From: an uncultured delta proteobacterium
GTDB lineage: Bacteria; Desulfobacterota; Desulfobulbia; Desulfobulbales; Desulfurivibrionaceae
Length of the DNA: 64,000 bases
Direction of reading: 5' to 3'
Assembly (NCBI GenBank): GCA_903869265.1
Contig: CAIPYE010000010.1
Coordinates: 1 to 64,000 of the forward strand
Every line of letters starts with the position of its first letter. Position 1 is the first letter of the stretch. The notes under the pieces are model-generated. The model had not been told where the DNA came from, ran no database searches, and saw only the letters and a list, made by a program, of their open reading frames with translations. Below, one piece after another: positions 42,128 through 44,174 of this stretch. The position numbers were made by a program, and so were the translations under genes.

Positions 42128-43870
42128 TTACCTAGACCCGGTCCGAATGCTACCGACCTGCCCACCAAAAATCTCAGTGGTCATCTGCACCATGGGGTCA
42201 TTGGCCAAAACCCGTCGCTCAGCAAGAAGGCTTTCCGCCTCGTCACCGCCGCCATCATCGATCGCCTGTGCGCCGCGCACCTTGAAAACAACCCGGAAAT
42301 CATGCTGGAAAAAATCCAGGGCAAAAGCCTGCAAGAGCTTCAAATTGTCATGCTCCTGCAGCAGCTTGCAGTCGGATGGGTCATCAAACTTCAGAACCAG
42401 CTCGCCCCCTTCATCCCGTGCCGAGGCGCACAACTGTAACACAGGAGCCATCCAGCGCTTGCGCTCTTTGACATACCCAACAAACGCCTCCCAGTGCCGT
42501 TTTACTTCCCGGCCAGCAGGGAGAACGGCCGCCGAGGGAGACGATTGCCCACTTTGCTCTTGGGAGACCGTGGATTCTGGCGCTATTTCATTTTTTTTTT
42601 GTTCCGGCAACGTTCCGAAAGAAGAGTCAATCGATGACCGGGGTATAGCCCTGGGCACGGATGGCTCCGGTTCCGCCGTGGAAATCGCCAACGAGACTGG
42701 CCTCCCGACGCCCTGCAGCAGGGGAACGGTTCCGGCCAACAATCCGTCAAGCCGTTCCAACAGGGTGGCCGCCGGCACGATCTGGCCTGCCTGGGTGGCC
42801 CTGACAAAAACCATTTCCAGAACAAGGCGGGGACGGGACGAGTACTGCATCTCCTCACTCCCCTTCAACAGCAGGGAAAAATACTGGTAAAGCGTTTCCT
42901 GGCTGACACTCGCAGCAATATCCTTGATAGCCGACAACTCCTGGTCGGAAAGGTCCAGCAACTCCTCGGGCCGGGCCTTGACCTTGGCAATCAGCAAGGC
43001 CCGGAAAAATCCCAGCAAATCGTTGGCAAAACGCTTGAGGTCCATGCCAGCGGCATGGCTCTGCTCAAAGATATCAAGGCAACCGGCCAGGTCAGCAGCC
43101 AAGAGCGCCCGTGCTAAATTTTCATAGATCCGGCGGTCAACTAACCCCAGGACTTCCGCCACATCCCCATCACTGATCTCCGCCCCGCCAAAGGAAAAAA
43201 GCTGATCAAGAAGACTCAGTCCGTCCCGCACACTACCTTCGGCCTCCCGACCAATCATCTCCAAGGCACGCTGGGAAATAGCAACCTTTTCCGCCCCGGC
43301 GATCCTGGCAAAAAACACAACCAGCTCGGCAAAAGGAACACGCTTGAGTTCATAGCGCTGACATCGGGAGAGGATGGTAATCGGGATCTTGTGCAGCTCG
43401 GTGGTGGCGAACATGAAATAGACATGGGCCGGAGGCTCTTCCAAGGTCTTCAACAGGGCGTTGAAGGCCTCAGTGGTGAGCATGTGCACTTCATCGATGA
43501 TGATGATTTTATAGCGACCCTTGGCAGGAAAAAAGCGGATGTTTTCCTTGAGCTCGCGAATCTCCTGGATGCCGCGATTGGAGGCGCCGTCGATCTCATG
43601 CAGATCCATGGCGTTGCCGGCCATGATCTCCGTGCATGACTCGCACTGGTTGCAGGGCACATCCGGCTCACCCTGCTGGCAGTTGAGCGCCTTGGCCATG
43701 AGTCTCGCCAAAGTGGTTTTACCAACCCCACGCACCCCGGAAAAAAGCATGGCATGGGCGACCCGGTTACGAGTAAGCGCATTGCGCAAGGTGCGCACCA
43801 CGGCCTGCTGACCGACAACCTCATCAAAATTCTGGGGACGCCATTTTCTGGCTAAAACCAGGTAGGACAT
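42128..43870 (-). CDS. dnaX: DNA polymerase III tau (and probably gamma) subunit
   Basis: A 580-residue clamp-loader protein. AAA+ domain with Walker A GVRGVGKTT, a Cys zinc site ending CNQCESC, sensor region TLEEPPAHVYFMFATTE, then domain III and a tau-specific C-terminal region. Ten consecutive A residues of coding sequence (42591-42600, codons 424-427) mark the junction. A gain of one base or a -1 shift meets TGA at once, and a loss of one base or a +1 shift meets TAG two codons later, giving proteins of 427-428 residues, close to the Escherichia coli gamma length (431). It follows the SRP RNA gene. Confidence 0.96.
   Translation of the reverse strand: MSYLVLARKWRPQNFDEVVGQQAVVRTLRNALTRNRVAHAMLFSGVRGVGKTTLARLMAKALNCQQGEPDVPCNQCESCTEIMAGNAMDLHEIDGASNRGIQEIRELKENIRFFPAKGRYKIIIIDEVHMLTTEAFNALLKTLEEPPAHVYFMFATTELHKIPITILSRCQRYELKRVPFAELVVFFARIAGAEKVAISQRALEMIGREAEGSVRDGLSLLDQLFSFGGAEISDGDVAEVLGLVDRRIYENLARALLAADLAGCLDIFEQSHAAGMDLKRFANDLLGFFRALLIAKVKARPEELLDLSDQELSAIKDIAASVSQETLYQYFSLLLKGSEEMQYSSRPRLVLEMVFVRATQAGQIVPAATLLERLDGLLAGTVPLLQGVGRPVSLAISTAEPEPSVPRAIPRSSIDSSFGTLPEQKKNEIAPESTVSQEQSGQSSPSAAVLPAGREVKRHWEAFVGYVKERKRWMAPVLQLCASARDEGGELVLKFDDPSDCKLLQEHDNLKLLQAFALDFFQHDFRVVFKVRGAQAIDDGGGDEAESLLAERRVLANDPMVQMTTEIFGGQVGSIRTGSR
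42591..42600 (-). promoter_or_regulatory. A10 slippage/frameshift site in dnaX
   Basis: On the coding strand the run follows C of codon 424 and precedes T of codon 427 (reads Gln-Lys-Lys-Asn in frame). Both alternative frames stop within two codons (TGA and TAG). Homopolymeric A runs at this place in dnaX are known to make gamma by transcriptional slippage in Thermus thermophilus and by ribosomal frameshifting (A6G motif) in Escherichia coli. Confidence 0.7.
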
Positions 43871-44086: not shown

Positions 44087-44174
44087 TGGCGGAGAAGGTG
44101 GGATTCGAACCCACGGTACGTTGCCGCACACACGCGTTCCAGGCGTGCACCTTAAGCCACTCGGTCACCTCTCC
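44087..44174 (-). tRNA. tRNA-Ser (GGA)
   Basis: An 88-base class II tRNA with acceptor GGAGAGG/CTTCTCC, encoded CCA, a long variable arm (GTGCGGCAACGTAC region) and anticodon stem-loop CACGC-CTGGAAC-GCGTG giving anticodon GGA. It lies 16 bases upstream of the SRP RNA gene on the same strand. Confidence 0.93.

Follow-up and report, generated by a model that had tools for sequence, protein, structure and literature searches.

A candidate Thermus-type transcriptional slippage run in dnaX, maintained across codon phases in Desulfobulbales

The dnaX gene of the window (the whole 64-kb stretch of DNA that was analysed) contains a run of ten A's that, judging from its conservation, is quite probably a selected transcriptional-slippage cassette of the Thermus type, making both the tau and the gamma forms of DnaX. 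The dnaX gene of Thermus slips on a run of nine A's, making gamma (PMC1088944). In the mechanism proposed here, RNA polymerase would lose register on the ten A's: mRNAs with ten A's, or with ten plus or minus a multiple of three, would encode full-length tau (580 aa), and mRNAs of other A lengths, in which TGA or TAG would follow within two codons, would encode gamma (427-428 aa), which would retain clamp-loader domains I-III without the conserved C-terminal domain. The suggestion of an earlier note on this DNA, that the run is placed to make both tau and gamma, is supported by the conservation of the run and its stops; the occurrence and rate of slippage, and the stability and use of gamma, are what we infer from it.

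The gene is encoded on the minus strand (42128..43870; TIGR02397 dnaX_nterm, E 1e-131; Pfam domains DNA_pol3_delta2, lid and gamma3, the last of these being domain III), and is the sole DnaX gene of a 2.8-Mb, 99% complete genome that also has one other related gene with a delta-prime-type domain. It is followed in the window by ybaB/ebfC and recR, and a tRNA-Ser(GGA) gene (44090-44174, minus strand) is directly upstream. Clamp-loader domains I-III, common to both predicted products, occupy residues 1-374 (42749..43870, minus strand; PF13177 at 20-177, PF22608 at 188-229 and PF12169 at 233-374), and E. coli gamma/tau structures are matched by residues 1-360. Between domain III and the C-terminal domain is a variable hinge with little conservation (approximately residues 375-455; 42506..42748, minus strand), which bears the run. 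The earlier note had located an A10 run at codons 424-427 (42591..42600, minus strand), and this was confirmed on the coding strand, where the T10 visible on the plus strand at 42591-42600 is read as CAA AAA AAA AAT GAA ATA G. Its stops in both other frames within two codons and its predicted short product of 427-428 residues were likewise correct. Insertion of one A brings the TGA immediately 3' of the run into use (42588..42590, minus strand; -1 frame) for a predicted product of 427 aa, and deletion of one A or insertion of two results in ATG AAA TAG after the run (TAG at 42583..42585, minus strand; +1 frame) for a predicted product of 428 aa. Both short products would end in the hinge, with domain III ending at residue 374 and the run beginning at codon 424; their predicted C-termini read ...EQKKK and ...EQKKMK.

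The C-terminal domain of tau (approximately residues 456-580; 42131..42505, minus strand), which is absent from the predicted gamma, is conserved across the order Desulfobulbales, and approximately its first 80 residues are modelled confidently by AlphaFold. The top ten Foldseek matches of this domain include 2aya, 5fku_E and 5fkv_E (E. coli tau domain V), all weak (E ~0.1, TM 0.3), and the best VIA-align matches are to SirA and DnaA domain I (KH-like; Z 7.7 and 6.6), at a level that may indicate a common arrangement only; a secure fold match to tau domain V was not found by Foldseek or VIA-align. By analogy with E. coli tau, the domain is expected to link the clamp loader with the polymerase.

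Apart from the A10 run, no A/T run in the window reaches nine bases, but this rarity was rejected as evidence: shuffled windows contain 2.2 A9 matches on average, and the genome contains 76 runs of at least nine A's, some of them within other genes (30 of the 76 runs sampled). Because shuffled windows match A9 equally and such runs are numerous in the genome, A10 by itself is not beyond chance; its conservation, on the sequences compared here, is.

Seventeen genomes of the genus, including that of the window, yielded 15 dnaX matches, of which 14 are intact. The earlier note had named synonymous interruption of the run in relatives as a test, and the opposite was seen: in 12 of the 14 intact genes A10 is retained without codon changes and is followed by TGAAA(T/C)A, and two have lost the run. 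The -1 frame TGA abuts the run in all 12 run-bearing congeners; in 10 of them the +1 frame stop follows within 2-3 codons, and in the remaining two it is 6 and 9 codons away. The fifteenth match (G006) also has A10, in a gene that is broken elsewhere in the assembly. In a codon alignment of the 12 run-bearing congeners, just 113 of 388 amino acid-invariant codons are codon-invariant, and the longest unbroken series of these in the whole gene is codons 424-428, with flanks that vary within the hinge. Both lysines of the run are encoded by AAA wherever the run exists, despite the preference for AAG in dnaX of this family (242 AAG versus 61 AAA codons in domains I-III). Other genera of the family have A9 followed by C-TGA, keeping the run and the -1 stop with different bases; genus g3 of the same family has no run in its three intact dnaX genes. 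The two congeners that lost the run (G003, L015; G004, L014) have A4 and A6 near codon 424. Out-of-frame stops are still nearby in at least one frame in these two genes, which provide natural run-less comparators.

A wider sample, consisting of one dnaX per species from a completeness-filtered, protein-based search together with the genus and family of the window, comprised 150 complete single-frame genes of Desulfobulbales, a large sulfur-cycling order (151 before one with N's was left out). Hinge runs of nine or more A's (A9-A12) are present in 87 of the 150 species. The length of the longest hinge A-run is bimodal: among the 151 genes, 63 have 2-8 bases, and 31, 50, 6 and 1 have 9, 10, 11 and 12, respectively. 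Codon-order shuffling predicts 2.6 of 150 genes with such runs (maximum 7), and synonymous resampling with the protein kept predicts 16.4 (maximum 24 in 200 rounds); these shuffles are uncorrected for the non-independence of related species, for which the phase changes described below and the tally of genera (27 of 54 with at least one run-bearing species) correct in part. No run of eight or more A's was found in the first 375 codons, and no run of six or more T's in the hinge, among the 151 genes surveyed. Most of the genomes are metagenome-assembled, so that a few run lengths are possibly wrong; A9-A11 is, however, also seen in genomes assembled into one or two contigs (e.g. G058, G059, G069, G070, G073, G094).

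The runs of at least nine A's begin in codon phase 0, 1 and 2 in 20, 48 and 19 genes, respectively. Whatever the phase, length peaks at 9-10 bases, whereas the count of complete AAA codons ranges between 2 and 3; the nucleotide run, not the codons, therefore seems to be under selection. A tree of domains I-III indicates at least 18 changes of run phase and at least 30 changes of run presence, rough counts from a quick tree with many weak forks. The start of the run in relatives ranges from codon 384 to codon 482. Thus, the match in length to E. coli gamma, to which the earlier note had drawn attention, is loose and was rejected as evidence, and what relatives share is the location of the run in the hinge after domain III.

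Lys, Pro and Glu abound in these hinges, and it might be supposed that the run has no programmed role: a lysine-rich hinge of low complexity would drift, replication slippage would lengthen its A-runs, and the stops would be incidental. Such an origin could account for approximately 16 of 150 genes with long runs, the number expected from the proteins, and for the frequent gain and loss of runs (at least 30 changes on the tree), but 87 were observed versus a maximum of 24 in 200 resamplings, run lengths are bimodal, AAA is kept against a strong AAG preference, and codons 424-428 are invariant inside an otherwise variable hinge. The stops, too, are unlike what incidental stops would be, for they are sixfold enriched over those that follow shorter A-runs in the same hinges, and this explanation is considered very improbable. 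Both out-of-frame stops are within 10 codons of 65% of the order's hinge runs of nine or more A's, versus 10% of A4-A7 runs in the same hinges and 12.5% of random hinge codons, and the median distances are 2 and 5 codons versus 12 and 32. In genus g39 (Desulfocapsa-like), a pair of stops recurs 5-7 codons downstream as GTAGcTGA or a variant thereof. The out-of-frame stops are therefore kept or renewed well above controls, as regards the conservation check that had been proposed for them, and stops in both frames are a requirement of slippage of either sign. The genome of the window also encodes tRNA-SeC (L378, 2767-2864), and UGA, which is the -1 stop codon of dnaX too, may therefore specify selenocysteine at other loci.

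Three signals are required for frameshifting of the E. coli dnaX type: A_AAA_AAG, a Shine-Dalgarno element and a hairpin. At the dnaX site of the window, A_AAA_AAG is absent, with only A_AAA_AAA and A_AAA_AAT there; no upstream Shine-Dalgarno-like stimulator was seen (in family f1, the anti-Shine-Dalgarno energy is -3.37 versus -3.34 at random hinge sites), and no stable downstream stem-loop was seen (z of -0.23 in the window, with means of -0.21 for f1 and -0.28 for the 87 run-bearing genes). Signals of an E. coli-type ribosomal frameshift were thus not found here, apart from the -1 frame stop immediately 3' of the slip site.

The main rival of transcriptional slippage is a ribosome that slips by -1 on A_AAA_AAA or A_AAA_AAT, or slides on poly(A), and produces the same gamma. 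Consistent with this are the in-frame A_AAA_AAA and, as in E. coli, the -1 frame TGA directly behind it, together with a slightly better upstream anti-Shine-Dalgarno match in some f7 species. On repeated AAA codons, E. coli ribosomes slide and then terminate at out-of-frame stops (PMC4363877), and sliding on poly(A) would leave the same conserved sequence. Against ribosomal slippage are the absence of A_AAA_AAG from the site and of any consistent Shine-Dalgarno element or hairpin, the constancy of run length over codon phases while full AAA codons number 2-3, and the upkeep of a +1 frame stop that is superfluous for a -1 shift. Sliding in particular is disfavoured because 46 run-bearing genes have just two whole AAA codons, and two are normally read without sliding (PMC4363877). 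Ribosomal slippage is thus judged unlikely, and transcriptional slippage is favoured because of the phase independence of the run, the lack of stimulators, and the presence of two tRNA-Lys genes in the genome (UUU, L373; CUU, L382). The two-tRNA-Lys state, which a review links to slippage in Thermus (PMC5009743), counts as an accompanying feature and not as a strict requirement.

Like dnaX of Thermus thermophilus, the gene has a single tau frame, an uninterrupted sense A-run of at least nine bases and near stops in both other frames, in a genome with both tRNA-Lys species (PMC1088944, PMC5009743). It differs in that the run is A10 rather than A9, is located at approximately 73% of the gene rather than seven-eighths, and belongs to a different phylum. 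With the E. coli -1 frameshift it shares a gamma, here a predicted one, that ends in the hinge after domain III, an immediate -1 stop and a similar length of short product (~430 aa), but A_AAA_AAG, the upstream Shine-Dalgarno element and the downstream stem-loop are lacking here, a +1 stop is kept, and there is an extra tRNA-Lys(CUU). Caulobacter also makes two DnaX products from one gene, as is proposed here, but by proteolysis of tau with no sequence run (PMC5009743). The two-ORF dnaX genes of Chlorobi and others contain an A10 or shorter run at which slippage has been proposed (GeneTack, PMC3711429); there gamma is in frame and tau is made by the shift, whereas here tau is in frame.

In one dnaX of the order (G088, L263), with A10 at codons 393-407, the zero frame gives gamma (407 aa), and tau (590 aa) can be reached only through one more A. 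This two-ORF layout looks like the Chlorobi type; alternatively, the assembly may have introduced an indel into the run. If a slipping A-run yields both products at any exact length, single-base changes would be tolerated and the run would drift through the three codon phases, occasionally flipping which product is in frame, as perhaps in G088. The same metagenome-assembled genome, in which one more A restores tau, and the mutability of long homopolymers could also suggest phase-variable or damped expression, in which the run would lower tau output or allow a replicative on/off switch and the truncated protein would have no role. Off-switching is implausible because dnaX is essential in model bacteria, and the cut in the hinge spares domains I-III, which fits a functional gamma; phase-variable or damped expression is accordingly given almost no credence here.

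Hinge runs of nine or more A's are missing in 63 of the 150 species, including two congeners, genus g3 and all seven members of family f15; thus, gamma made by a slippage run is not essential across the order. The lost run is not generally replaced by an A_AAA_AAR motif, since only 5 of the 63 run-less genes have A_AAA_AAR with a -1 stop within three codons. The seven dnaX genes of f15 (G166-G171, G173) have no hinge A-run over four bases and no A_AAA_AAR site with a near -1 stop, and gamma may be absent from this family or made otherwise. Other Desulfobacterota (L309 of G191, L310 of G242, L305 of G282, L290 of G219, L294 of G230, L344 of G194 and L328 of G198) have A9-A10 near codons 502-537 of dnaX, close to the C-terminus, and in most of them an out-of-frame stop follows shortly; there, slippage would remove from tau no more than its last 30-60 residues.

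On balance, the comparisons suggest that transcriptional slippage is the usual route to gamma in dnaX of Desulfobulbales, with a cassette that was regained or re-phased many times and a two-product output held by selection. Slippage in Thermus, frameshifting in E. coli, proteolysis in Caulobacter and two-ORF dnaX genes with A10 (PMC3711429) were known already, and no report of dnaX slippage in Desulfobulbales was found in a literature search. What appears to be new is a Thermus-type slippage run in dnaX of this order, and less expected is that it would be order-wide, free of codon phase and repeatedly renewed. According to a 2005 survey, truncating slippage is not easily recognised from comparisons (PMC1088944); paired out-of-frame stops combined with phase independence offer a usable signature for it. 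It has long been asked whether gamma is important beyond a handful of model bacteria. The run and its double stops are maintained recurrently and independently of phase in over half of the species sampled, which is comparative evidence for selection on both DnaX forms, and the natural species with and without the run permit direct tests of the role of gamma.
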